Positions 4,228 through 18,858 of a DNA stretch of 64,000 bases are shown here, one piece after another (the stretch's first letter is position 1; every line of letters starts with the position of its first letter). The DNA is from Nocardia sp. BMG51109. GTDB taxonomy: Bacteria; Actinomycetota; Actinomycetes; Mycobacteriales; Mycobacteriaceae. A program made the translations under genes and the position numbers. Location of the stretch: positions 4,836,001 to 4,900,000 of the forward strand of contig NZ_JAFQ01000004.1 in the NCBI RefSeq assembly GCF_000526215.1, written 5' to 3'. The notes beneath the pieces are model-generated. The model saw only the letters and a list, made by a program, of their open reading frames with translations, was not told the DNA's origin and searched no databases.

Positions 4228-5442
4228 TTACCATTCGACGGGAAGAGCGGCGAGACCGAAGACGGTCGCGAACGGGCGGAAGACGAGGTCTTCGACATCC
4301 ACGGTGAGCCGAAGCCCCGGAAAGGCTCGCGCCAATGCCGGGAGCGCGACGCACATCTCGGTTCTGGCCAGCGGAGCGCCGAGACAGCGGTGGGTTCCGT
4401 GCCCGAATGCGACGTGATCGTCGATTCGCCGGGTGATATCGAAGGTGTCGGGATCGGGGAAGATCTGGTGATCTCGGTTGGCGGTGCAGAGGGACAGCAT
4501 CACCAGGTCCCCTTCGGCGATGTGCTGCCCGCCCAATTCGGTGTCCTCGGTCGCGGTCCGGATCAGACCCGTTTGCGCGACGGAGAGGTAGCGGAGGATC
4601 TCCTCGACCGCTCCGTCGATGCTGTCGGGGTCCTCGCGGATCGTCGCCAGTGCGTCCGGACGTTGTATGAGCAGCAGGGCACCCAGCGCGAGCGTGTTGG
4701 CCGTGGTGTCGTGGCCGGCCGCGAGGAGCAGGTTGGTGATGCCGGTGACTTCCGGATCGGTGAGTTCCGCGCCGTGGGTGCGGACCAGGCCCCCCAGGAT
4801 GGTGTCGTCGGGGTGCCGGCGCTGCCGGGCGACCAGATCGGTCAGGTACTCCCACACCGGGGCGAAGGTGTCGATGAGCGCCTCGCGGTCCAGGGTTTGG
4901 TCGAACATGCGCTGTGCGCGGCAACGGAATTCGGGGCGATCGGATTGCGGCACACCGATCATCTCGCAGATGATCTCCGACGGTATGGGCAGTGTGAAGG
5001 ACTGCACCAGATCCGCGGGCGGGCCGGACGCCGTCAGCGATTCGATGCGGTCGGCGACGATCTCCTCGATCCTGATTTGCAGCGTCCGCATTCGCCGTGG
5101 GGTGAAGGCGGACGACACCATCCGGCGCAGCCGGGTGTGTTCCGGGGGATCGGCACCGAGAAAACTGCCGGGCTGCCTGGCCGGGCTCGCCACGAAGGCT
5201 CGTCCGGTGGCTTTGGGCCGCAGGACGGTGTTGGGAACCTTCGAGACGCTGAAGCTGCGGTCGGCCAGCACCCGGCGGACCTGTGCGTACCGGGTCACCA
5301 GCCACACCGGATCCCCGTTCGGCGCGGTCTGGCGGGTCGGCGCCTCCTCGTCGCGCAACCGCAACAGCTCCGGACTCGGCTCGTACGGCTGGTGCCCGCC
5401 ACGCCGATAGGCCAAGGGCACCGAGCCGACGCTCCCGCTCAT
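4228..5442 (-). CDS. Cytochrome P450 of the terpenoid operon
   Basis: 404 residues, a soluble bacterial class I P450. Landmarks in order: PPEHTRLRRMVSSAFTPRRM (C-helix), AAGHDTTANTL (I-helix with intact Asp-Thr), EEILRY (ExxR) and FGHGTHRCLG (haem Cys loop). The ATG at 5440-5442 overlaps the stop of the cyclase gene (ATGA), so the two are coupled. The expected role is hydroxylation or further oxidation of the cyclised terpene; regiochemistry cannot be read. Ferredoxin and reductase are not encoded nearby and must come from elsewhere in the genome. Confidence 0.92.
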   Translation of the reverse strand: MSGSVGSVPLAYRRGGHQPYEPSPELLRLRDEEAPTRQTAPNGDPVWLVTRYAQVRRVLADRSFSVSKVPNTVLRPKATGRAFVASPARQPGSFLGADPPEHTRLRRMVSSAFTPRRMRTLQIRIEEIVADRIESLTASGPPADLVQSFTLPIPSEIICEMIGVPQSDRPEFRCRAQRMFDQTLDREALIDTFAPVWEYLTDLVARQRRHPDDTILGGLVRTHGAELTDPEVTGITNLLLAAGHDTTANTLALGALLLIQRPDALATIREDPDSIDGAVEEILRYLSVAQTGLIRTATEDTELGGQHIAEGDLVMLSLCTANRDHQIFPDPDTFDITRRIDDHVAFGHGTHRCLGAPLARTEMCVALPALARAFPGLRLTVDVEDLVFRPFATVFGLAALPVEW

Positions 5443-7070
5443 CCTCGACCGCCCGTATAGGCCAGGGCCAGCAGGGCGAATCCGTCGGCGAGTACCGGCA
5501 GGTCGTGCGGGAAGGGCCGCGGCCCTGCCGAATCCGGGCGGGAGCTGAATCCGCCGTCCCGATGTTGCTGTGCGACAAGCCAGTCCGTGCCCTTGCGGAC
5601 GACCGCCGGGTCCGTGTCGCAGCAGGTGAGCGCGAGCAGCGAGTAGGAGGTGCTGAGCACATCGCTGCGATCGCCCGGCCGTTGGCCCCAGCCGCCGTCG
5701 GGGTTCTGCGTCCGGCGGAAGTAGCGGAGTGCCGCTCCGGCAGCGCTTTCCACGGATTCCCGCAATTCGTCCGGCGGCCCGGACCGATAGTGCCGGAAGG
5801 CGAACAGGGCCCGGAACATCGCGTTCGCCTCGCTGGCGCTCCAGCCGCGTTCGAAGGTGCCGTCGGTCTGCTGCTTGTGCAGCAGGTACCGCACGGCACC
5901 GTCGAGAATTGCGGCGTGGTCTCGTCCGTTGCCGCTCGTTGCGTCGTTGTGCCGCAACGGTTCCAGCGCGCTGACCGCGCTGCCGGTGACGCCGACCTCC
6001 GAATCGTCGCCATACCGGTAGGTGCCGAATCCGCCGTCGGAGTTCACCAATTCGAGCAGATAGCGCTCGGTCGCCCGGATCGCGGTGTCGAAGCGCTCGT
6101 CGTTCGTGGCGCGGAGCAACTCCAGACAGTAAGGGGTGCAGTCGGCGTCGCTCTGCCGCACTCTGGGGGCGAACGCCCACCCGCCGTCGTCGCTCCGGGT
6201 GCGCACGAGGTATTCGGCCATACTCGTGACGACGGCGGGGTCGGCGCCGGAATGAGCCAGGGCGAGACCACAGACCGCGGTGCCGAACGGCTCCCAGCCG
6301 GCGATGAAAGGGAACCCGCCGTCCGGATTCTGGCAGCGCAGAAGTGCTTCCAGGCCGGACCGGATCATCGGTGACGCCGGATCGATCCGGCGCAGACCCA
6401 GCAGGCCGACCGCGTGGGCGAAGATATCGGCCTCGAAGACGCTGCGGTCGGAACCGGTGGCGAGATGGTGCAGCAGGTAGGTGCGGTCGGCGTCGGTGAC
6501 GGCGCCGGGTTCGCCCTGCTGATGTGCCCGCATGATCTTCAGTGCGCACATCTCCAGATTCACCCATGTCGCGTAGCTGTCGTAGCGCACGGCGGCGAGG
6601 TCGAAGGGCACGTCGCTGTCGGCAACCGACAGCTCGGTGAACAGGGTGTGGAACATGAATCGTTTCCGCGGCGAGGTGAAGTGCCGGTAGCGGTCGATGG
6701 CCTCCAACGGGACCCGGCTCGCGCCGGACTCGCCGAGCAGTGCCGATACGAGGGTCTGCTCCACGGCCGCGACCTCCGGATCGTACGCACCCGATTCGGG
6801 TGGGTCCGCTCGGTGTGTTTCCAGATATTCGACGATTCCGCGTTGCGTGTCCTCGAAAATTCCCTCGGCGCGCAGCAGATACAGCAGCAGGCAGGATTCG
6901 AGCACGCGACTACCGCAGCGGTCCCGCACCGCCCCGTCGTCGCCCACGTGGCCGATCACGTGGGCACGCAGGCGCGCGAGAGGCTCCCATTCCGCGGGGG
7001 CGGCCGCGGTATCGACCGGTTCGGGAGCGGTGCCGGTGACCGGCGGAACATACAGGGAGGATGCCAACAT
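5439..7070 (-). CDS. Class II terpene cyclase, QW-repeat type, DADC motif
   Basis: 543 residues of squalene/hopene-cyclase and prenyltransferase alpha-barrel repeats. QW-like repeats: QNPDGGF near 247, RSDDGGW near 292, NSDGGF near 343, then QQTDGTF, QNPDGGW and QHRDGGF toward the C-terminus. The proton-donor motif is D308-A-D310-C311-T, replacing the DxDD of most class II cyclases; the middle Asp is present. No class I DDxxD metal motif was seen. Length fits bacterial diterpene class II cyclases rather than squalene-hopene cyclases (about 630 residues). Its position after a GGPP-type synthase and before a P450 points to protonation-initiated cyclisation of a C20 prenyl substrate. A 66-base gap precedes it, the largest in the operon. 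The product is unknown. Confidence 0.87.
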   Translation of the reverse strand: MLASSLYVPPVTGTAPEPVDTAAAPAEWEPLARLRAHVIGHVGDDGAVRDRCGSRVLESCLLLYLLRAEGIFEDTQRGIVEYLETHRADPPESGAYDPEVAAVEQTLVSALLGESGASRVPLEAIDRYRHFTSPRKRFMFHTLFTELSVADSDVPFDLAAVRYDSYATWVNLEMCALKIMRAHQQGEPGAVTDADRTYLLHHLATGSDRSVFEADIFAHAVGLLGLRRIDPASPMIRSGLEALLRCQNPDGGFPFIAGWEPFGTAVCGLALAHSGADPAVVTSMAEYLVRTRSDDGGWAFAPRVRQSDADCTPYCLELLRATNDERFDTAIRATERYLLELVNSDGGFGTYRYGDDSEVGVTGSAVSALEPLRHNDATSGNGRDHAAILDGAVRYLLHKQQTDGTFERGWSASEANAMFRALFAFRHYRSGPPDELRESVESAAGAALRYFRRTQNPDGGWGQRPGDRSDVLSTSYSLLALTCCDTDPAVVRKGTDWLVAQQHRDGGFSSRPDSAGPRPFPHDLPVLADGFALLALAYTGGRG

Positions 7071-7136: not shown

Positions 7137-8159
7137 TCAGAGACGCCGGTGTGCGATGAAATTCGTCAGCGCGACGAGGTCCGCCGTCCCGGCGCTGTCG
7201 GGAAGAGCCGCCAGCGCCGCCGCGACCCTGCGGTCGGCGAACTGCTGGGCTCGCCGTCTGCCGCCCGCATCCGCGATCAGCTTCGCGGCGTGGGCCGCCT
7301 GGGCCGGCGTGATGGGGTCGGCCGACCGGTACAGCTGAGCGAGTTCGGCGCCGGCCGCGGTGGCCGATTCGAGCGCCGCGACGACCGGGAACGAGCGTTT
7401 TCGGCGAATCACGTCGTTGCCCACCGGTTTTCCGGTCCGGTCCGGATCTCCCCAGATGCCGAGTATGTCGTCGGTGACCTGAAAGGCGATGCCGAGTTCG
7501 TGGCCGAACGTGCCGAACGCGTCGATGGTGGCGGCATCGGCCGCGGCACACGAGGCGCCCAGCGCGCAGGCGCAGCCGATCAGGGCGGCCGTCTTCCCGG
7601 CCGCCATGGCCACGTACTGGTCGACGGTGACCGCGGGACGAGTTTCGAACGAACAGTCCTCGCACTGTCCCCGGCACAGTTGTGCCGCCGCGTCTTCCAG
7701 CCGAGTGACGGCATCCACGGCCGGCACGGCCGGTAGCGCGCCGACCAGTATCCGGATCGCCTCGGCATGCAGCGTGTCCCCCAGGCAGAGCGCGGCGGGT
7801 ACGCCCCACACCGCCCACGCCGTGGCGCGGCCGCGCCGCAGCCGGTCGCCGTCCATGATGTCGTCGTGGACCAGGCTGAAGTTGTGGACGAGCTCCACCG
7901 CGGCCGCACCCGGCAGGGCCGCGCGCGGGTCGGCGCCGCAGGCCGCGGCCGCCGCGAGAACCAGCCCCGCGCGCAGCCCTTTACCCCATCCCGCCTGCGT
8001 GGGATTGCCGGACGGATCGCGCCAGCCGAAGTGGTACGCCGCCATCCGGTCCAGCGGCTCGGGCATGGCGAAGATCGTGTCTCGCAGCGTCGGCTCGCAG
8101 AGTTTCCGGGCCTGTTCGAGCAGGGCGGCGGGCCGGTGGGAGCTGGTTGTTCGGGTCAT
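7137..8159 (-). CDS. Polyprenyl diphosphate synthase, probably GGPP synthase
   Basis: 340 residues from the ATG that overlaps the decarboxylase stop (8156-8159). The first Asp-rich motif is LVHDDIMDGDRLRRG and the second is QVTDDILGIWGDP, both as in bacterial trans-prenyltransferases. Phe five residues before DDxxD fits short-chain (C20) products. It condenses DMAPP with IPP made by the preceding mevalonate enzymes and feeds the cyclase gene downstream. The alternative of FPP or longer chains cannot be excluded. Confidence 0.9.
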   Translation of the reverse strand: MTRTTSSHRPAALLEQARKLCEPTLRDTIFAMPEPLDRMAAYHFGWRDPSGNPTQAGWGKGLRAGLVLAAAAACGADPRAALPGAAAVELVHNFSLVHDDIMDGDRLRRGRATAWAVWGVPAALCLGDTLHAEAIRILVGALPAVPAVDAVTRLEDAAAQLCRGQCEDCSFETRPAVTVDQYVAMAAGKTAALIGCACALGASCAAADAATIDAFGTFGHELGIAFQVTDDILGIWGDPDRTGKPVGNDVIRRKRSFPVVAALESATAAGAELAQLYRSADPITPAQAAHAAKLIADAGGRRRAQQFADRRVAAALAALPDSAGTADLVALTNFIAHRRL

Positions 8160-9175
8160 TCTTCCTGCCTCGAGTCGGGGAGATCGACGAGGTGGGAACC
8201 GGTGCCGGGCAACGTGGTCCGGGTCGTGACCCGGTCCAGTTCCCGGATCGCCGTCTCCACCCGCGGTGCCTCCGTGCGGGCGCACAGCACCTTCACATTC
8301 GGGCCGGCGTCGATGGTGGCGTAGGCCGCGATGCCGTGCCGGCGCAGCTCGACCACGCGGTCGAGAACCGACAGTGACCGCGGTGTCAGATATCTGATCG
8401 CCGGCCGCGCGGCCAGCATGGTGGCGTGCATACCCAGCGCGTTGGCTTCGGCGATTTCCCCGACGCGTGCCAGATCACCCTTCGCGATGGCGGCGGTCAT
8501 CTCGACGAGGTCGGCCGAGCCGGCTTCCGCCCAGCAGCGGTAGAGCGGTGACGTGGCCATGGTCGAGCGCATCGCGTCGCCGGTCGAGACGGCCTTCCGG
8601 CCGGGGTCGACGATCGCGAGCACCATCGCCGGGTCGAGTGCGCCGGTGTCGACCGGCTCGGCGTAGGAACTGCGGTCGCCGTCCGGTCCGGTGCCGGTTC
8701 CGGCACGCCACAGGACGAACGAGCCGAAGATCGATCGGCAGGCCGATCCGGACCCCCGGCGTGCCAGGCGGGACAGGTCCCGGCGGTCCAGCGAGATGCC
8801 GTAGGCGGCCGTGGCGGCCGTCGCCAGCGCCGCGAAACCTGCTGCGGAGGAGGCCAATCCGGCGGCGGTGGGAACCGTGTTGACGGTCTCCACCGCGGCG
8901 CGTTCGGTGCTGTTCGCGAGCTCGCGCACGATGTCCAGGAAACGCGTGACCCGGCGGCGGAACTCGCCGTCGGTCTCGTTGCCGTTCGCGACGACGGTGT
9001 CGTGGCGGGAACCGGTGACGGGCCGGACGGTCGTCGTCGTCGGGTAGCTGTCGAGCGTCATCGAGAGGCTGCCGGTGACGGGCAGGACCATGACATCGTC
9101 CCGCTTGCCCCAATACTTGATGAGCGCGATGTTCGGGTACGCGACGGCGGCCGCCGGCCGGGGCGCGACAGTCAT
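8156..9175 (-). CDS. mvaD: Diphosphomevalonate decarboxylase
   Basis: 339 residues of the GHMP kinase superfamily. Signatures: YPNIALIKYWGKRD at the N-terminus, the phosphate loop PTAAGLASSAAGFAAL near residue 107, RRGSGSACRSIFGSFVLW near 140, and DAGPNVK near 292. The enzyme converts mevalonate diphosphate to IPP with ATP and loss of CO2, the last mevalonate step. Both ends overlap neighbours by four bases (ATGA with the ACP gene before and the prenyl synthase gene after). Confidence 0.95.
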   Translation of the reverse strand: MTVAPRPAAAVAYPNIALIKYWGKRDDVMVLPVTGSLSMTLDSYPTTTTVRPVTGSRHDTVVANGNETDGEFRRRVTRFLDIVRELANSTERAAVETVNTVPTAAGLASSAAGFAALATAATAAYGISLDRRDLSRLARRGSGSACRSIFGSFVLWRAGTGTGPDGDRSSYAEPVDTGALDPAMVLAIVDPGRKAVSTGDAMRSTMATSPLYRCWAEAGSADLVEMTAAIAKGDLARVGEIAEANALGMHATMLAARPAIRYLTPRSLSVLDRVVELRRHGIAAYATIDAGPNVKVLCARTEAPRVETAIRELDRVTTRTTLPGTGSHLVDLPDSRQEE

Positions 9176-9420
9176 GCCCGGTGCGGAGAGTCGTTCTGTT
9201 CCACCGAGTTCACGTAGTCGACGAGCTGGTCGAGGGTCTGGAGTTCGTCGGCGACGGTGGCGGGGATGGCGACGCTGTAGGTGCGCTCGATGCGGACGAG
9301 CAGCGTGGTCATATCCATGGAGTCGATGCCCTGGTCTTCGAGCGGGACGTCGGGCCGGAGGTCGTCGCCGGTGGCGTCGAGACCGGTCATGAGGTCGGTG
9401 ATCTCGTGCGTGGTGATCAT
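9172..9420 (-). CDS. Free-standing acyl carrier protein
   Basis: 82 residues. The phosphopantetheine attachment motif GIDSMD is present with the serine in helix II context (DQGIDSMDMTTLLVRIE), and the protein is acidic as expected. It is encoded between the KASIII-like gene and the decarboxylase gene, overlapping both by four bases. Family knowledge: such carriers hold thioester intermediates for a condensing enzyme. It is probably the partner of the adjacent KASIII-like enzyme, supplying malonyl groups or accepting acetoacetyl. An ACP inside a mevalonate operon is unusual. Confidence 0.9.
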   Translation of the reverse strand: MITTHEITDLMTGLDATGDDLRPDVPLEDQGIDSMDMTTLLVRIERTYSVAIPATVADELQTLDQLVDYVNSVEQNDSPHRA

Positions 9421-10397
9421 GTGTTGCTCCCGGTGTGATCGGTATCCGCGGAATATCGGAGGAGGCAGGTGCCCCAGGAGAAGCCGACCCCGAAGCCGGC
9501 CAGAAGCGTGGTGAGCGGCGGGTTCTCGCGCAGTCGCGGGGCGAGCGCGAGCGGTATCGAGGAGGAGACGGTATTGCCGTAGTCGGCGATCTCGAACGGC
9601 AGCAGCTTCTCGTCGACGGCCAATTCCTCGCGGAGGGTCTCGATGATTCGCCGGGAGCCGGGATGCGCCAGGATCAGATCGATATCGCCCAGGCCGAGTG
9701 CGTTGCGGCCGAGCACGCGCCGGAGGCTGCCGGGAACCGTGCGGGCGGCGTTGAGCAGGACGCCGCGGCCGTCCATCGCGAGATATCCGGTGTCGCAGGA
9801 CAATACGTTCGTGGTGCCGGGTGCGGTGCCGAAGTCGGCATCGAGGACCCGGTAGCCGTCCGCGCCGGTGGCGAGGTAGGACACCGTGGCGGCGTCGCCG
9901 AACAACAGGGCGGTGTTGCGGTCGCCCGGGTCGACGATGGGCGTGTAGGGGTCGCAGGTGAACAGCAGCGCGTGGCCGAAACCCAGCCGGTCGGCCAAGG
10001 CGGTGGTGACGGTCAGGCCGTGGGCGTATCCGGCGCAGCCCTGGGAGAGGTCGAAGGTCATGCAGTGCTCGGCGAGGCCGAGCTTGTCGTGCACTATCGC
10101 GGCGGTGTGCGGGATGCGCTGGTCCGGGTTCTGGGTGATCACGCACAGCAACCGGACGGCGTCCAGGTCGACCGGTGTGTGCCGGATCAGATCGTCGAAT
10201 GCCTCGAGGCACAGGTCGCTGGTGCGTTGCTCGGGTTCCTTGACCGCGCGGGCGCCGATGCCGATCCTGGTGTCCAGGAACTCCCGGGAGACGTTCAGCC
10301 CGGCCGCGAGCGGCCTGTTCGACACCCGCCGAGCGGGCAGATGGGTACCGATTGCGGTGAGCGCCACGGTGTCACGATCGCGGTCGGGTGCCGACAT
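9417..10397 (-). CDS. KASIII-like condensing enzyme, putative acetoacetyl synthase
   Basis: 326 residues of the thiolase-fold ketosynthase III family. The catalytic triad is visible: Cys121 in SQGCAGYAHG, His245 in LAHPGSRR and Asn275 in YGNTVSSS. The His motif is HPGS, not the HQAN of FabH. It sits directly after HMG-CoA synthase and overlaps its own ACP gene. Known parallel: NphT7 of Streptomyces CL190, a KASIII homologue in a mevalonate cluster, condenses acetyl-CoA with malonyl-CoA to acetoacetyl-CoA. The operon has no thiolase, so the same supply role is inferred here. A role in priming another acyl chain is possible. Confidence 0.85.
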   Translation of the reverse strand: MSAPDRDRDTVALTAIGTHLPARRVSNRPLAAGLNVSREFLDTRIGIGARAVKEPEQRTSDLCLEAFDDLIRHTPVDLDAVRLLCVITQNPDQRIPHTAAIVHDKLGLAEHCMTFDLSQGCAGYAHGLTVTTALADRLGFGHALLFTCDPYTPIVDPGDRNTALLFGDAATVSYLATGADGYRVLDADFGTAPGTTNVLSCDTGYLAMDGRGVLLNAARTVPGSLRRVLGRNALGLGDIDLILAHPGSRRIIETLREELAVDEKLLPFEIADYGNTVSSSIPLALAPRLRENPPLTTLLAGFGVGFSWGTCLLRYSADTDHTGSNT

Positions 10398-10403
10398 CGC
10401 CGA

Positions 10404-11621
10404 TCACTCTCCGCGGCTGCCGGAGTTCACGGAATACGTTGCCACTCGCCGGTTTTCGGTGGCCTCGTAGGTTCGGATGTCGTTGGTGACGGCGGCGAGC
10501 CGGTACGGGCCGGCGGTCTCCGCGTCGGGCACGTATCTCCCGGTGGGCGGCGGCGTCTCGTGCAGTGTGCGGTACCGGTCGTAGCCGATGGGTTTGCGGG
10601 CGTCGACGGCGTCGCGGTTGGCGTCGGTGCGCAGGTGCTCGCGGTATCCGGGTACCGGTGTGGCCGAGAAGAATTCGGCGACACATCCGGATCCGTAGCT
10701 GAGCAGGGCGATGGGCGTGCCGGTGAGGTCGTCCGGTTGATCCAGCAGGGCGGCCAGGGCGAGGTAGAGCGAGGCGGTGTAGCTGTTGCCGATCACCCGG
10801 TTGTAGCGCGTGGTGGCCGCGACCGCGGCATCGATGTCGTGGTCTTCGGGAGGGGCCCCTGCGGATTCGAGCAGATGCCGGTGTGCCTTGTGAGCCATCC
10901 TGGTGAACGGCTGGTGGTAGCAGAACGCGCCGAACTCGGCGAGGTCGTGCCCGCCGCGGCGGCGGTAGTCCGCATAGGCGTGCCGGACGGCGTCCAGGTA
11001 GGCGGTGATGGACAGCTTGCCGTCGACGATGGGCGTCGCGCGGTGGTTCGGACGCCAGAAGTCCATCACGTCGGCGGAGTACACGCCGGTGACCGGCCCC
11101 AGCTCGGCGACGGCGGGGTCGGCGGAGACGAGAATCGCTGCGGCACCGGCGCCTTGGGTGGCCTCGGCCGGGGTGTCGAGATCGTAGCGGGCGATATCGC
11201 TGGCGATCACCAGGACCTGCTGGGCGGGATCGCGGGTGATGAGTCCGACGGCGAATTGCAGTGCGGCGGTGGCGGCGTAGCAGGCCTGCTTGAGTTCGAC
11301 GACGCGGGTCGTCGGGGGGAGATCGAGCAGGGGATGCAGCGGGAGTCCGGCGGCCTTGGACTGGTCGATGCCGGTCTCGGTGGCCAGGATGAGCGTGCGC
11401 AGCCGTTCGGTGCCGTGTCGTCGCAGGACCGGTGCGGCGGCGGTGGCGGCCAGCGTGACCACGTCCTCGTCGTCGGCGGCGATGCTCATCGCCTCCTGAC
11501 CGAGCCCGCGGTGGTATTTCTCGACCGGTACGCCCTGCTGGCGGGCAAGGGTGGCGTGGTCGAGTACGTAATGCGTGGTGGCGAGCGAGATATCGTGAAT
11601 TCCACAGCGGGGCAGGATCAT
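10404..11621 (-). CDS. mvaS: Hydroxymethylglutaryl-CoA synthase
   Basis: 405 residues. Catalytic residues by family pattern: Glu82 in ATETGID, Cys114 in ELKQACYAAT and His236 in CYHQPF. The enzyme condenses acetyl-CoA with acetoacetyl-CoA to HMG-CoA. It lies 33 bases after the reductase gene and six bases before the KASIII-like gene whose product probably provides its acetoacetyl substrate. Confidence 0.95.
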   Translation of the reverse strand: MILPRCGIHDISLATTHYVLDHATLARQQGVPVEKYHRGLGQEAMSIAADDEDVVTLAATAAAPVLRRHGTERLRTLILATETGIDQSKAAGLPLHPLLDLPPTTRVVELKQACYAATAALQFAVGLITRDPAQQVLVIASDIARYDLDTPAEATQGAGAAAILVSADPAVAELGPVTGVYSADVMDFWRPNHRATPIVDGKLSITAYLDAVRHAYADYRRRGGHDLAEFGAFCYHQPFTRMAHKAHRHLLESAGAPPEDHDIDAAVAATTRYNRVIGNSYTASLYLALAALLDQPDDLTGTPIALLSYGSGCVAEFFSATPVPGYREHLRTDANRDAVDARKPIGYDRYRTLHETPPPTGRYVPDAETAGPYRLAAVTNDIRTYEATENRRVATYSVNSGSRGE

Positions 11622-11654
11622 CGGAATACTCGATTCTGTCGGGCTCGATCCGGG

Positions 11655-12695
11655 TCACCGGGTGGTGCGCTCGAGGCGGGTGTGGGCGCGCATCAGCTCG
11701 CCCGGATTCGTTTGCGCGGCAAGCAGGGACAGCTCGCCGCACAGGACGGTGGCGGCGGCGATCGCGGCGAGGCGGCGGGAATTCTCGCCGGGAGGCCGTT
11801 CGTCACGGCAGCCGAGGCGCGACAGCGCCGATTCGACGTGCGGGTGTTGTTTGCCGTTGCCGATGGTTCCGATGACGAGATTCGGTAGCGTGCACGAGAA
11901 GTACAGGTCGCCGTCGCGGTTCTCGGCGTAGGTGATGCCCTGGGAGCCCTCGACGATATTGGCGCCGTCCTGCCCGGTGGCCAGGTAGAAGCCGAGCAGC
12001 ATGTTGGCGTAATGGGCGTTCGCCGTGCCGATTCCGCCCGCGAGCACGGTGCCCAGCAGGTTTTTGCGGGTGTTCAGGGTGGCGATTCGGTCGGCCGTCG
12101 TGTGCAGCCGCTGTTCGACGGCCTCGCGCCCGACGGTGATCTCGGTGACGACATTCTTGCCGCGCCCGAGGATTCCGTTCACGGCGCTGGTCTTCTTGTC
12201 GGTGCAGTAGTTCGCGGAGACCGACCCGTAACGCAGGCCCGGGATCCGGGCGAGGATCCAGGCGGTGAGCTGATCGGCGGCCTGGGTGGTCATATTGTGC
12301 CCGGCGGCGTCACCGGTGGTGCACTCGAACCGCAGGTACAACAGGTTCCCGGTGATCCGATGGTGCATATCGATCAGGTGGGCGTGGCGGCTGCCCGCGG
12401 TCACCACGTCGCGGAGTTCGTCGAAACGGTCGCGGAGCCGGCCGACCGCGGCGAGCGCCGTCGCGGCGTCGTCCGCTTCGAGCAGGATCGATCGGGTCAT
12501 GCGGTCGTCGACGACGGTGGCGGCGATGCCGCGTTCGGTCAGCGTCGACAGGCGGGCTCCGCGCCGGACCGAATGCCACAGCGGCGTCTCGAATGTGGCC
12601 AGGGGGACGTCGAATTCGCCGGTTACCGTGCCGCCGGTGAGGCGAATCGGTCCCACCCAGGCCAAGGGGACGGCCGCGTACTCGTCTTCGATCAT
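11655..12695 (-). CDS. Hydroxymethylglutaryl-CoA reductase
   Basis: 346 residues from the ATG at 12693-12695 (MIEDEYAAVP), chosen because it overlaps the isomerase stop by four bases; an upstream GTG would add five residues. Motifs: TGDAAGHNM, GRGKNVVTEI, GSQGITYAEN and GTIGNGK. The enzyme reduces HMG-CoA to mevalonate in two NAD(P)H-dependent steps, usually the committed step. No membrane segment is present, as in bacterial enzymes. Confidence 0.93.
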   Translation of the reverse strand: MIEDEYAAVPLAWVGPIRLTGGTVTGEFDVPLATFETPLWHSVRRGARLSTLTERGIAATVVDDRMTRSILLEADDAATALAAVGRLRDRFDELRDVVTAGSRHAHLIDMHHRITGNLLYLRFECTTGDAAGHNMTTQAADQLTAWILARIPGLRYGSVSANYCTDKKTSAVNGILGRGKNVVTEITVGREAVEQRLHTTADRIATLNTRKNLLGTVLAGGIGTANAHYANMLLGFYLATGQDGANIVEGSQGITYAENRDGDLYFSCTLPNLVIGTIGNGKQHPHVESALSRLGCRDERPPGENSRRLAAIAAATVLCGELSLLAAQTNPGELMRAHTRLERTTR

Positions 12696-13876
12696 GTCGG
12701 ATCCCACCACTTTCTGGTCGCTGGGCCGGGCTGCGGGGCAGCGTGTTCGGCCGCCGAGCGGGTCGATCGGGCGCTCGGCGCCGGGGGAGAGTCGTCGACG
12801 GACGGTGTCCGGCCGCGACGGAAGAATGTTCTCGCGTCGATACCGTAAGCGCGGCAGTAGTTTTCGACCTCGCCGGTGAGGAGTAGATCGCAGCGCTCGA
12901 GTGCGCGGGGAGTCTCGGCGCCCAGCACCGTCATGATCAGCGACAGCTGGTCCAGCCAGGACTTGATGGTGTCGATCAGGGCGTCGACGCCGTTGTCGAC
13001 GAGAACGGTCAGGAAGCTGCCGGCGACGCCGGTGGCGCGGGCGCCCAGGGCGAGCGCGCGGGCGGCGTCGAGGGGTGAGCGGATGCCGCCGGAGGCCACG
13101 ACGTCGATACCGGGCATTCGCGTGGCGCCGAGCAGGCAGCAGACCGTCGACTGACCCCAGTGCTGCATGATCGAGAAATCGTCACCGGATCTGCGGCTGT
13201 TCTCGATCCGCGCGAAGTCGGTGCCGCCGCGGCCGCCCACGTCGGCGATCGTGACGCCCAGATCCCGCAGCAGGGCAACGGTTTCGGGGCTCAGCCCGAA
13301 TCCGACCTCCTTCACGATCACCGGCACCGGGACGGCGCCGACGATGTCCCCGATCCGCCGCGGCCAGTGCGTGAAATCGCGATCGCCTTCGGGCATGACG
13401 ATCTCCTGGATCGCGTTGATGTGGATCTGCAGGACGTCGGCCTCGAGCAGGTCCACCGCGCGCTGAGCCTGCGCCGGGGTGGTGTTGGCGTTGATATTGG
13501 CCATCACGAACCCGCGCGGGTTCTCGGTGCGCAGCACGCGGTAGGTGCCCGCGACCGAGGCGTCGCGCAGGAACGCGCTCATGGAGCCGGAGGCGATCGG
13601 CAGCCCCGTCTCGGCCGCCGCGATGGCCAGCTGCCGGTTGATGGCGCCGGTGCGTGCGCTGCCGCCGGTCATGCCGTTGATGTAGAGCGGTGTCGCCCAT
13701 GTGCTTTCGCCGACGGTGGTGCTCAGGTCGACTCGGGCGCGGTCGATGCCGGCCAGGGCGTGATGCACGAAGGTGACGGAGTCGAAGTCGTTTCCGCCGA
13801 CCGCGCCGTGGTGCTGGTCGACGGCGTGCCGCACGTGGTCGTCCTTGCGGTTGCCGATGACGGTCGCATCGGTCAT
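12692..13876 (-). CDS. fni: Type 2 isopentenyl-diphosphate isomerase
   Basis: 394 residues from the ATG at 13874-13876 (MTDATVIGNRKDDHVRHA), overlapping the phosphomevalonate kinase stop. FMN-dependent TIM-barrel features: NRKDDHVR at the N-terminus, PLYINGMTGGS, QIHINAIQE, VIVKEVGFG, DVGGRGGTDFA, and VVASGGIRS in the phosphate-binding loop. It interconverts IPP and DMAPP. The last 40 or so residues are a poorly conserved, low-complexity tail. Confidence 0.95.
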   Translation of the reverse strand: MTDATVIGNRKDDHVRHAVDQHHGAVGGNDFDSVTFVHHALAGIDRARVDLSTTVGESTWATPLYINGMTGGSARTGAINRQLAIAAAETGLPIASGSMSAFLRDASVAGTYRVLRTENPRGFVMANINANTTPAQAQRAVDLLEADVLQIHINAIQEIVMPEGDRDFTHWPRRIGDIVGAVPVPVIVKEVGFGLSPETVALLRDLGVTIADVGGRGGTDFARIENSRRSGDDFSIMQHWGQSTVCCLLGATRMPGIDVVASGGIRSPLDAARALALGARATGVAGSFLTVLVDNGVDALIDTIKSWLDQLSLIMTVLGAETPRALERCDLLLTGEVENYCRAYGIDARTFFRRGRTPSVDDSPPAPSARSTRSAAEHAAPQPGPATRKWWDPT

Positions 13877-14976
13877 GCGGCGTCTCCTTCGGGCGGGTGG
13901 GTGTGCAGCTCCAGCGGGCGGATGCCGGCCCGGGCCCACTGTCTGGCCAGTTCGGCGGTCTGGGCAGGTCGGTAGCGGTCGACGACGGCGATGCCGCAGT
14001 CGCCGCCGCCCGCACCCGAGGGCTTGGCCGCCGCGCCGACCGGCTCGGCCGCCTCGCACAACGCCCGCAGTCGCGGGGTGTAGATGCCGAGTCCTGTCGC
14101 CTGGTCGAATTCATCGAGAAGCTTTGCGGCCTGGTGGATTTCGTGCTGCACCGCCGTCACGTCGTCGGCCGTGAGCGCGGCGGTCAACTGAGTGACACAG
14201 GTCCTGCTCTCGGTGAGGAATCTGCCGTGGGCCGGGGTTCTCAACTCCCCGGGACCGATTCGCGTGACACGGGCGCGGGTCGAGGCGGGCTGCCCGGTCC
14301 AACCGACCAGCAGTCGTGCCTGCCGCGGTGTCGGCAGCGGCCGCACCGACAGACCCGGCCATGGTGCGCGGAGCGCGCCGGCGATACCGCGCTCGGCGGC
14401 GAGGCCGGCCAGCTGTCCGCGATCGGGAGAGTGGTAGGTGAGCCAGCCGCCCCACGTCGCGGCCGCCACGTCGCCCCCGGAACAGTGCGGGTTCACCGTG
14501 ATGGTGGCGAGGATCGCCAGCCGGAACCGGTCGGCCGTGGTCAGCCGGAGCCGATAGAACGCACCGAGCGCATCGACCGCCGCCACGGTGACCGCGGCGC
14601 TGGACCCCAGCCCCAGCTTGTTGCCCGATCCGTCGGTGAGATCGGCGGTGGCGGAGTGCAATTCGAACGGCCTCGGGGCGCGGCCCTGCTCGGTCAGCAG
14701 TCGTTCCACGACCGCGGCGGCCGCCAGCACGTAAGCGGGCTCCTCCGAGACCTCGTCGATCGGCGACAGCCGCGAATGCGCATCCCGCGCACATCGCACC
14801 GGGGCGCCCTCACCGAGATCGGAGGTGAGCGTGGTGCTCCGGCCCGTGTCGGCGACCGTGACGGCGGCGTAGCGGTCGACGGCGACGAGTACGGAGGGAT
14901 ATTCGGGCTCGAGGGCGGCATACTCCCCGGCGATGTACAGCTTCCCGGGCGCGCGGCGGGTGATCACCACCGTCAC
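13873..14976 (-). CDS. Phosphomevalonate kinase
   Basis: 367 residues from a GTG at 14974-14976, which overlaps the mevalonate kinase stop (GTGA); the much longer open reading into that gene is a shadow. GHMP motifs: RRAPGKLYIAGEYA at the N-terminus, NKLGLGSSAAVTVAAV in the ATP loop and KPSGAGGGDCGIA near the C-terminus. It phosphorylates 5-phosphomevalonate to mevalonate diphosphate. Confidence 0.93.
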   Translation of the reverse strand: MTVVITRRAPGKLYIAGEYAALEPEYPSVLVAVDRYAAVTVADTGRSTTLTSDLGEGAPVRCARDAHSRLSPIDEVSEEPAYVLAAAAVVERLLTEQGRAPRPFELHSATADLTDGSGNKLGLGSSAAVTVAAVDALGAFYRLRLTTADRFRLAILATITVNPHCSGGDVAAATWGGWLTYHSPDRGQLAGLAAERGIAGALRAPWPGLSVRPLPTPRQARLLVGWTGQPASTRARVTRIGPGELRTPAHGRFLTESRTCVTQLTAALTADDVTAVQHEIHQAAKLLDEFDQATGLGIYTPRLRALCEAAEPVGAAAKPSGAGGGDCGIAVVDRYRPAQTAELARQWARAGIRPLELHTHPPEGDAA

Positions 14977-15965
14977 CACCCCCACATCGGCACGGTCCAG
15001 GTCCGGCAGGCGCCCGCGGCCCGCAGTTCCCGGCAGACCGCCGGGGCGGCATCCGGTTCGGTGAGCGCCACCATGCATCCGCCGAATCCGCCGCCGGTGA
15101 GCTTCGCTCCGTGCGCGCCGGCTCGCAGCGCGGTCGCGATCAATCGGTCGAGACTGCTTGTGCTGACCCCCAGTTCGCGTAGCAACGCCTGGAATTCGAT
15201 CAGCCGCATCCCCAGTGCCGCTGTCCGCCCGGCCGTCAGGTCCACCGTGGCGGCGTCGATGATTTCGCCGGCGCGCGCCAGCAGCCGCTGGGCATTGGCA
15301 CGCTCGCGGTGCAGCGTCGTCCACACCGAGTCGACCGCCTGCCGGGTGTCGCCCGGTTCCCCGGAATCGGCGACTACCAGGGTGGCGGCGGTGCCGGTGA
15401 TCAGCGGCCGGACGTCCCCGGCGTGGAAGAGGATGGGTCCGGTGGTCGCCACCGCGGCCGCGTCGACGCCGCTGGCTCGCCCGTGCACCAGGCGCTCGCC
15501 GCACTGCGCCAGCTCGTGCAGGGTGGCGTGATCCAGCGATCGCGCGTGGAGATCGGCCACGGCACGTACCGCCGCCACCGCGCACGCGGCGCTCGATCCC
15601 AGCCCTCTGGCCGGTGGAATCGCGCTCCGCACGGTCACCTCGACATCGGCCGAGCCGGACCCCCAGCGCCGCAGCGCCGCCCGCACCGCAGCGGCCGCAC
15701 CGGAATCGGCTTCGGCCGCCGCGCCGGGGCGGTAGGTGAACCGCACGGTGGTGGCATCGCCGTGGGCATCACCCTGCTGTGCCGGGTCGTCGACGATAGG
15801 TCGGGTGTTCGGCGAACAGGCCGTCGCCGTGACCGGCAGGTCCGGTAGCGGCACCGCGATCGCCGGTAGACCGTAGACGACGGTGTGCTCACCGAGCAGA
15901 ATGGCCTTACCGCAGGAACGGCCGGTCCCGACCGCGGATGCCGGTGGCGTCTCGGTGAAAGTCAT
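14973..15965 (-). CDS. mvk: Mevalonate kinase, first gene of the terpenoid operon
   Basis: 330 residues from the ATG at 15963-15965 (MTFTETPPAS); an upstream in-frame ATG would add 35 residues unlike the family. Motifs: GKAILLGEHTVVYGLPA, PPARGLGSSAACAVA and KLTGGGFGGCMVAL. It phosphorylates mevalonate with ATP. As first gene it presumably follows the operon promoter in the 15966-16477 gap. Confidence 0.95.
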   Translation of the reverse strand: MTFTETPPASAVGTGRSCGKAILLGEHTVVYGLPAIAVPLPDLPVTATACSPNTRPIVDDPAQQGDAHGDATTVRFTYRPGAAAEADSGAAAAVRAALRRWGSGSADVEVTVRSAIPPARGLGSSAACAVAAVRAVADLHARSLDHATLHELAQCGERLVHGRASGVDAAAVATTGPILFHAGDVRPLITGTAATLVVADSGEPGDTRQAVDSVWTTLHRERANAQRLLARAGEIIDAATVDLTAGRTAALGMRLIEFQALLRELGVSTSSLDRLIATALRAGAHGAKLTGGGFGGCMVALTEPDAAPAVCRELRAAGACRTWTVPMWGW

Positions 15966-17188: not shown

Positions 17189-17517
17189 GTGCTTCGGACC
17201 ATCGGTGCGAGCCGGTGTCGCCGGGCCGGACTCGATGGAGTACCAACCGGTCTCGCGTGTGCGTTCGGTGGCGCCGACGCCTATGAGGCGTGCGCATACA
17301 AATCATGTCATTACATCGTAAACCTCTGCCGCTGTTGATATTCCGGCTACTATTGGTCCATCGACCATTATTCGCATGGTTGTGTGCTCCAGATTGCGTG
17401 CCGTGCTGAATCCATGCCGCAGGAGGCCGGAATGGCTGGCAGGACTGTTTCGTGGATACGACATCGCCGGGTGGGGCGCGTCCGCCGGGGCGTGGTTTCG
17501 CGCATGGATCGGACGCG
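17189..17517. promoter_or_regulatory. AT-richer gap before the XRE regulator
   Basis: About 330 bases. The stretch 17290-17370 is clearly lower in GC than its surroundings and is a plausible promoter for the regulator. Small open frames here look like chance. Confidence 0.45.
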
Positions 17518-18858
17518 ATGATGACCAGGCCGATTCGTACGTGTACCCGGTGCGGCAGCAGGCTGGCGCGCGACAACGGCGGCGTGCTCTGTGCCCCCTG
17601 CGGCCATCTCCAGGACCGCCCGCCCAGGTTGTCACTCGATGCGTGGCGCAGCGATTCCATGCGAGAAGTGCTGCGCAGCAGGGATATCGGAGCGGTTCTT
17701 CGAACATGGCGGCATCATCCGGCGCACGGCTCCCGGCCCATCTCGCAGACCGAACTCGCACCGTGGCTCGGTATCACGCAGGGCCAGCTCAGCCGGATCG
17801 AGAACGGCCGCAACCGAGTTCGTGATCTGGACAAGCTCATGCAGTACGCCCGGGTGCTGGGTGTGCCGGCGGAACTGCTGTGGTTCGAGGTCGAGGACGA
17901 GGAACCGCCGCGACCGCCGGCCACCCGAACCCTGCGACTGAGTACCGGCACGGTGCCCGCCACCGTGTCGACGCCGGGACCGATGCTCGCCGATTCGCTG
18001 CTGACCACGCTGGACGAGTACGTGCTCACCGACAACCTCGCCGGACCGCATTCGCTGCTTCCGATCGTCACCCAGCAGGTGCAGTTCATCGAGCGCCTCG
18101 AGGAGACCAGCCGCGGCCGCACCCGCACGAGACTCCGGGCGGCGCGCGCCCGGTTCGCCGAATTCCTGGGCTGGCTGCACCAGGACGCCGGACATCTCGA
18201 TGCGGCCGTCGAGTGGACGGCGCACGCCGTCGGCCTCGCCCGGGAGCTGCGGGACGACCGGTTGCTGGCCTACATCCGGATGCGGCAGGGCAACTTGGCC
18301 TTCGACGCTGACAATCCGCAGGCCACCATCGACCTCGCCGAGGCGGCGCTGCGTACCTCCGCCGATCTCACGGCCCGGCAACGGGCCACGACATTGCGCC
18401 AGCTGGCGCACGGTCACGCCCGGCTCGGTAACGGCGACGCGTGTGCGCGGGCCCTCGGCCAGGCATGGGAGAACGCGGCCCGCCCCGGAAATGCCGACGA
18501 CGACCTGGCCGGCTACTGCACACCCGAATATCTGGCGATGGAGGCCGCGCAGTGCCAGATCGCGCTCGGCCGTCCCGACCAGGCCATCAACGTCCTGGAG
18601 CCCCGCCTTCCTCGATGGCATCCCGAGAATCGTCGCGACCTCGGCCGTGGCCTCACCCTCTTCGCGGTGGCGCTGGCCCGGACCAGGCAGCCCGACAAGG
18701 CCTTGGACGTTGCCGGGCACGCGCTGGCCGTCACCGCCGAAACGCGTTCCACCAGAACCGAACTCCAGCTCTATCGGGTCGTCCGCGAACTACATGTCAA
18801 CGATGCGCACGACCATGCCGCCGAACTCCGTATCGCGTTGCACAGGATGTTGCGATAG
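17518..18858 (+). CDS. XRE-family regulator with TPR-like C-terminus
   Basis: 446 residues from ATG 17518; the second ATG at 17521 is equally possible, and the longer frame lacks a better start. A Cys4 mini-ribbon opens the protein (CTRCG...CAPCG). The helix-turn-helix follows (SQTELAPWLGITQGQLSRIE then NGRNRVRDLDKL), and the remaining 300 residues are helical repeats typical of large actinomycete regulators that sense small molecules or peptides. It is convergent with no gene and near the terpenoid operon, so it may control the cluster; that link is inferred only from position. Confidence 0.85.
   Translation: MMTRPIRTCTRCGSRLARDNGGVLCAPCGHLQDRPPRLSLDAWRSDSMREVLRSRDIGAVLRTWRHHPAHGSRPISQTELAPWLGITQGQLSRIENGRNRVRDLDKLMQYARVLGVPAELLWFEVEDEEPPRPPATRTLRLSTGTVPATVSTPGPMLADSLLTTLDEYVLTDNLAGPHSLLPIVTQQVQFIERLEETSRGRTRTRLRAARARFAEFLGWLHQDAGHLDAAVEWTAHAVGLARELRDDRLLAYIRMRQGNLAFDADNPQATIDLAEAALRTSADLTARQRATTLRQLAHGHARLGNGDACARALGQAWENAARPGNADDDLAGYCTPEYLAMEAAQCQIALGRPDQAINVLEPRLPRWHPENRRDLGRGLTLFAVALARTRQPDKALDVAGHALAVTAETRSTRTELQLYRVVRELHVNDAHDHAAELRIALHRMLR

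Follow-up and report, generated by a model that had tools for sequence, protein, structure and literature searches.

The mevalonate (MVA) operon considered here holds a KASIII-like condensing enzyme and a free-standing ACP at a place where related bacteria have another enzyme or none at all, and raises the question of how the four-carbon unit for its HMG-CoA synthase is supplied and whether a carrier protein takes part in this supply. One precedent is NphT7, which reportedly goes back to Okamura et al. 2010, and the arrangement at this locus is a real and recurrent one, a carrier-protein variant of the NphT7 idea with putative chemistry. No description of KASIII and ACP paired within an MVA operon was found in the open-access literature, which was covered mostly as titles and abstract openings.

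The operon and its parts

The window, by which we mean the whole stretch of 64,000 nucleotides that was analyzed (C4:4836001-4900000 of an 8.79 Mb genome, the nearest named relatives of which at the protein level are Nocardia), contains on its minus strand a tightly packed operon in the order MVK-PMK-IDI2-HMGR-HMGS-KASIII-ACP-MVD-GGPPS-cyclase-P450, the parts of which are as follows.

14973..15965, minus strand: mevalonate kinase (MVK); TIGR00549
13873..14979, minus strand: phosphomevalonate kinase (PMK); start at one of several GTGs; identified from its sequence and from its matches to MVA operons elsewhere
12692..13876, minus strand: type 2 IPP isomerase (IDI2); FMN_dh family match, name from sequence reading
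11655..12695, minus strand: HMG-CoA reductase (HMGR); the ATG start gives a 4-base overlap with IDI2; alternative GTG at 12710
10404..11621, minus strand: HMG-CoA synthase (HMGS); TIGR01835, 464.6 bits (cut-off 360.35)
9417..10397, minus strand: KASIII-like condensing enzyme, 326 aa; ACP_syn_III and ACP_syn_III_C, both above Pfam cut-offs
9172..9420, minus strand: free-standing ACP, 82 aa; PP-binding above cut-off, serine in GIDSM
8156..9175, minus strand: diphosphomevalonate decarboxylase (MVD); TIGR01240
7137..8159, minus strand: polyprenyl (GGPP-type) diphosphate synthase (GGPPS); overlaps MVD by 4 bases
5439..7070, minus strand: class-II-like terpene cyclase; SQHop_cyclase_C
4228..5442, minus strand: cytochrome P450

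HMGS, KASIII and ACP stand in a row and, as the original prediction had stated, no thiolase is found among the operon genes. The 4-base overlaps that it gave to the pair hold for the ACP, the start of which overlaps the end of the KASIII and the end of which overlaps the start of MVD, but not for the KASIII and HMGS, which are separated by a 6-base gap. The operon genes further include no ketoreductase, acyltransferase or ECH, and HMGR is present. The GC content of the pair is 0.679, versus 0.682 for the window.

Sequence features of the KASIII and the ACP

The window KASIII has both ACP_syn_III domains and a Cys-His-Asn triad (Cys121, His245 within HPGSRRI, and Asn275), as is characteristic of a FabH-like KASIII, and the ACP matches PF00550 at 49 bits (cut-off 20.8), its GIDSM motif carrying the putative phosphopantetheine serine. 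The enzyme differs from FabH of type II fatty acid synthesis in having HPGS for HQAN and a dedicated ACP, and in scoring below the curated cut-off of the NCBIfam fabH model (TIGR00747; 166.2 vs 292.1 bits). Among the best 120 of 2218 homologues, the Cys, His and Asn are kept in all 120, and the His motif is HPGS in 105, HQGS in 13, HQAS in one and HPAS in one. The replacement of HQAN by HPGS, to which attention had been drawn originally, is therefore confirmed as a motif but carries no weight as an argument, since it is common across the family; judged from these homologues, HPGS is the motif of the window's KASIII family and no sign of altered chemistry.

Conservation within the genus and beyond

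Within the window's genus, this KASIII was found at E < 1e-60 in four of 150 genomes, the window's own included, and the carriers of the HPGS-type block include N. wallacei (L021) and N. grenadensis (L022). The order HMGR-HMGS-KASIII-ACP, and with it the KASIII together with its own free ACP, is kept at all four HPGS-type MVA loci, while MVK, PMK, IDI2 and MVD are reordered or not found in the stretch; that the block persists despite the shuffling of the other genes argues that the arrangement is not due to chance. The terpene genes of two HPGS-type loci were compared and differ: at L021 the genes that follow the ACP encode a terpene synthase of class I and a protein resembling a cyclase, while the operon of the window holds a cyclase and a P450. 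An order-wide search for the KASIII was positive in one of 397 genomes, namely the window's own; the KASIII homologues nevertheless include a 57% relative in Mycolicibacterium boenickei, and others come from Sorangium and Haliangium. A search for HMGS across the phylum, with few candidates scored per genome, was positive in 2 of 396 genomes.

Census of mevalonate loci

Eighty-seven actinobacterial MVA loci were typed, of which 62 have no KASIII, 17 have an NphT7-type KASIII and eight combine a KASIII with an ACP downstream of it; here "no KASIII" refers to the stretch that was fetched, and some stretches stop at contig ends (e.g., L158, L166, L183 and L192). The loci derive from the window's genus (HMGS by TIGR01835 in 50 of 148 genomes, at 62 places, all fetched), from the genus of G309 (HMGS in 22 of 295 genomes, at 25 places, with 21 typed and three second copies and one broken HMGS, L260, left out) and from a class-wide HMGS search (11 of 394 genomes, 12 places, of which three were already counted, four were new and typed, and five were HCS-type without an HMGR match). 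The ACP-type loci are L101-L104, L193, L238, L239 and L252, the last three from the genus of G309, which also supplies most of the NphT7-type loci. L193, from the window's genus, has the order KASIII-ACP-HMGR-HMGS, and L238, L239 and L252 have the order KASIII-ACP-MVK-MVD-PMK-IDI2-HMGR-HMGS. No ACP adjoins the KASIII in any of the 16 NphT7-type loci in which the downstream side is visible; at the seventeenth, L236, the contig ends exactly where an ACP would stand. The census used a wider ACP profile, the training set of which contains the ACPs of seven of the eight ACP-type loci; a first profile had missed the ACP of L239, and the ACP of L252, which lies outside the training set, was found by the wider profile at 44 bits. 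With this profile, the NphT7-type locus L230 shows one ACP-like ORF without a DS motif, ~4.6 kb from the KASIII, at 22 bits. In the window's own genome, seven of 13 other KASIII-type places have no ACP within ~1.5 kb by the wider profile, which is unchecked against housekeeping ACPs.

The genome search proposed with the original prediction therefore recovers KASIII-ACP pairs within MVA operons at 8 of 87 loci, in about three KASIII lineages. Homologous operons that keep a thiolase, which had been named as evidence against ACP-dependent entry, were not encountered: with two of the genome's own thiolases as queries, the 87 fetched stretches gave one weak match (29 bits, at L175) and no clear thiolase. 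However, the missing thiolase loses its force as an argument for the same reason, as thiolase-free operons are normal, 62 of the 87 also lack a KASIII, and thiolases are encoded elsewhere, the window's own genome having thiolases at 15 places with scores of at least 131 bits. The 62 loci without any KASIII also mark the pair as optional. Two of the four HPGS-type genomes carry a second HMGS locus without the pair (L137 in G018 and L182 in G146), and relatives of the same HMGS clade likewise lack it at L174, L176, L179 and L181. At L174, where the MVA operon is closely related to that of the window, HMGS is followed by an AMP-ligase-like gene, an ACP and a P450 (9192-12323), with no KASIII-ACP pair; this trio is perhaps an ACP-bound hydroxylation step, and it shows that an ACP can follow HMGS for another purpose. 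At L238 and L239, with neighbors named by eye apart from phmmer matches, a terpene synthase-like gene and GGPPS lie nearby, and L238 also has a flavin monooxygenase and a weak P450 match; that these two loci are carbazole clusters was considered and set aside, the neighbors there being the terpene synthase-like gene and GGPPS.

KASIII lineages and the Arg marker

The KASIII tree separates the HPGS type, L193, L238/L239 and the NphT7 type from one another, the window KASIII lying outside the NphT7 clade on a separate long branch with support 100/100. The eight ACP-type enzymes thus appear to represent about three lineages, namely the HPGS type (four loci), L193, and L238/L239/L252, where L193 is a long branch of unsure placement and L252, absent from the tree, is assigned from its motif, HQANLRI, and its gene layout. 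The CoA motif [AG]GGSR is present in all 16 readable NphT7-type enzymes and in none of the eight ACP-type enzymes; L193 has GGGAR at this site, and AGGSR is absent from the window KASIII. Conversely, the residue five after the catalytic His, which we take to be R249 in the numbering of E. coli KASIII and which is Arg250 in the window enzyme, is Arg in all eight ACP-type KASIIIs and in one of the 16 NphT7-type enzymes (L237), the other 15 having V, I, A or T (Fisher p = 1.2e-5, uncorrected for kinship).

The accessible part of one source describes NphT7 as lacking an Arg needed for ACP binding, as having no KASIII activity, and as carrying an AGGSR motif suggested for CoA recognition (PMC5432608). 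An excerpt of another describes R249 as lying close to the entrance of the E. coli enzyme, and also reports that the A. baumannii KASIII binds ACP yet has Asn at this position (PMC8036411). Within the window's KASIII family the Arg is present in 65 of the best 120 homologues, including the 15 closest (the window's own protein among these), and is replaced by Tyr, Ala or Val in 10 of 10 aligned relatives that adjoin an ACP outside MVA operons. By this alignment the presence of the Arg does not go along with ACP pairing within the family, and the residue thus fits ACP binding without proving it. The window enzyme resembles NphT7 of Streptomyces sp. CL190 in its KASIII fold, its Cys-His-Asn triad and its position beside HMGS in an MVA operon and, presumably, in a decarboxylative route to acetoacetate that replaces thiolase. 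NphT7 makes acetoacetyl-CoA without ACP, and NphT7-type enzymes have AGGSR, mostly no Arg and no adjoining ACP where visible, whereas the window KASIII belongs to another lineage and has its own ACP.

The HMG-CoA synthase

HMGS homologues of HCS beta-branching cassettes offer a second comparison, as there too an HMGS relative, an ACP and a ketosynthase are grouped; the window differs in lacking the ECH pair, in having HMGR and a full MVA pathway, and in the CoA type of its HMGS. In CurD, Arg33 is a phosphopantetheine-binding residue according to the excerpted text of PMC10006238; by our own mapping, which subtracts the tag length, the window HMGS has Lys35 at this site. At position 241, where five of five HCS-type sequences have Gly, it has Arg, so that neither HCS residue is present. 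The HMGS of the ACP-type operons accordingly looks canonical in sequence, without features of ACP-acceptor HMG synthases. In a scan of 91 aligned HMGS/HCS sequences (L194 dropped), post hoc and uncorrected for kinship, the 78 HMGS other than the ACP-type ones gave 214 columns with a conservation of at least 80%; at two of these columns, 145 and 241, the conserved residue is Lys, and none of the eight ACP-type enzymes has it. Position 241, which follows the catalytic His motif, is non-Lys in all eight ACP-type enzymes, in one of 17 NphT7-type (L237) and in 9 of 61 others. Replacement at 241 may mark carrier recognition, but only as a lead, as the scan was post hoc and uncorrected for kinship, the changes are mostly from Lys to Arg, and no literature source was found for a role of this Lys. 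A comparison of HMGR residues gave no clear pattern.

The same pair outside mevalonate operons

Outside MVA operons, 21 of the 24 loci L023-L046 have an ACP directly 3' of a same-family KASIII by the wider profile, and 18 of 24 have one by the first scan. Inspected by eye, the pair lies between NRPS/PKS genes with a dehydrogenase at L023, beside such a dehydrogenase and PKS/NRPS genes at L027-L030, and beside a dehydrogenase with no PKS in view at L025. At L032-L034, L042-L044 and L046 (around 7500-13500), also by eye, it stands in glycan loci, partly of nonulosonate/flagellin type, from Helicobacter kin, Shewanella, Marinomonas, Marinobacter and Alteromonas, which suggests a supply of C4-acyl groups for sugars. 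A small protein with FKG.R.Y[IL]H.TD is encoded near the KASIII at L042, L043, L044 and L046. As it occurs in MVA, NRPS/PKS and glycan loci, the pair looks like a portable module, presumably for a short beta-keto acyl-ACP.

A model for acetoacetyl supply

The observed gene order and coupling, together with catalytic residues that are intact, the recurrence of the pair in other operons and its separation from NphT7, allow a model to be proposed, the individual chemical steps of which we infer, including the formation of acetoacetyl-ACP and its use by HMGS. With a probability that we place slightly above even, the pair is dedicated to supplying HMGS with its four-carbon unit as acetoacetyl-ACP, which it makes from acetyl-CoA and malonyl-ACP. 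A housekeeping PPTase and FabD would convert the ACP to malonyl-ACP; the KASIII would load acetyl from acetyl-CoA onto Cys121 and condense it onto malonyl-ACP with loss of CO2, and this decarboxylation would make the condensation effectively irreversible, unlike that of a thiolase. As the operon has no ketoreductase, it is proposed that the acetoacetyl unit goes to the neighboring HMGS, either still bound to the carrier or once it has been moved to CoA, and that HMGR and the remaining enzymes would then provide IPP/DMAPP for GGPPS and the cyclase. Since the HMGS looks canonical, it may either take acetoacetyl-ACP without visible remodeling, or the acetoacetyl group may pass to CoA first. In a further version, which can be entertained only tentatively, the start of the pathway is carrier-bound throughout, the KASIII giving acetoacetyl-ACP, HMGS giving HMG-ACP and HMGR releasing mevalonate, with at least two further KASIII lineages independently recruited; terpene supply would then draw on malonyl-ACP.

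ACP-dependent entry, as the original prediction had it, thus stands as the best reading although its arguments from the absent thiolase and from HPGS do not, and recurrence at 8 of 87 loci in about three lineages makes it better supported than it was from the window alone. A precedent is provided by NzsF and NzsE (CqsB5/CqsB6) of carbazole biosynthesis, also a dedicated KASIII and free-standing ACP, which form acetoacetyl-NzsE, NzsF accepting only its own ACP (PMC7466098, in the part available); that pair feeds the carbazole scaffold after reduction, whereas the window pair lies inside an MVA operon. For animal FASN, too, it has been proposed that acetoacetate carried on the ACP feeds sterol synthesis, with a release step that is likewise unexplained (PMC5900750, as excerpted). 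If ACP-dependent entry is correct, it would stand beside thiolase and NphT7 as a further way into the MVA pathway, tie terpene supply to fatty-acid precursors, raise the question of whether HMGS and HMGR work on carrier-bound substrates, and offer metabolic engineers another irreversible source of acetoacetyl units. The KASIII-ACP pairing could also serve as a genome-mining mark for terpene clusters.

Alternative explanations

The pair may instead make a short acyl-ACP (acetoacetyl, or 3-hydroxybutyryl after the action of housekeeping FabG) that decorates the terpenoid product, in which case its place in an MVA operon would reflect a single biosynthetic gene cluster that comprises all of these genes. 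KASIII relatives with an ACP in glycan loci (by eye) and beside PKS/NRPS genes are consistent with this, as are NzsE/NzsF, which in the available text feed a scaffold and not the MVA pathway, and the ACP, AMP-ligase-like gene and P450 that follow HMGS at L174. However, the pair is common to the window and L021 although their terpene genes differ, the operon genes include no ketoreductase or acyltransferase, and about three KASIII lineages occur with an ACP inside MVA operons, so that acyl tailoring seems doubtful. It stays the main rival given that most loci lack the pair, as do L137 and L182, the four HMGS relatives and, with its different trio, L174.

It is less probable, and in our view unlikely, that the KASIII is an NphT7-like acetoacetyl-CoA synthase acting on malonyl-CoA, with the ACP auxiliary or otherwise employed. 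Its position after HMGS is that of most NphT7-type genes and it has a KASIII-type fold and triad, but it belongs to another lineage on a long branch, lacks the AGGSR loop, and has an ACP directly downstream, as in 8 of 8 ACP-type loci against an adjoining ACP in 0 of 16 visible NphT7-type loci. The ACP could also be an acetyl donor, the KASIII decarboxylating malonyl-ACP and HMGS using the resulting acetyl-ACP with acetoacetyl-CoA from a housekeeping thiolase. Such a role would recall the grouping of HMGS, ACP and ketosynthase in beta-branching cassettes, in which a donor ACP provides the acetyl unit that the HMGS homologue uses (PMC10006238, in excerpt), and thiolases are plentiful in the genome; with a full Cys-His-Asn triad in the KASIII, no ECH among the operon genes, HMGR present and an HMGS without HCS residues, it is nonetheless highly improbable.

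Further observations on the neighborhood

In the window cyclase (5439-7070), DADC stands where DxDD is usual. A GTP cyclohydrolase II (RibA-like) gene lies beside MVA/terpene genes at L021:14615-15226, by Pfam match, and at L022:3288-3962, where it was assigned by eye and appears as two pieces. Three species share a similar long HTH regulator near the MVA operon (window 17452-18858 and L021:1684-3087, both by Pfam match, and L022:1-1386, by eye), and it is possible that it regulates the pathway.
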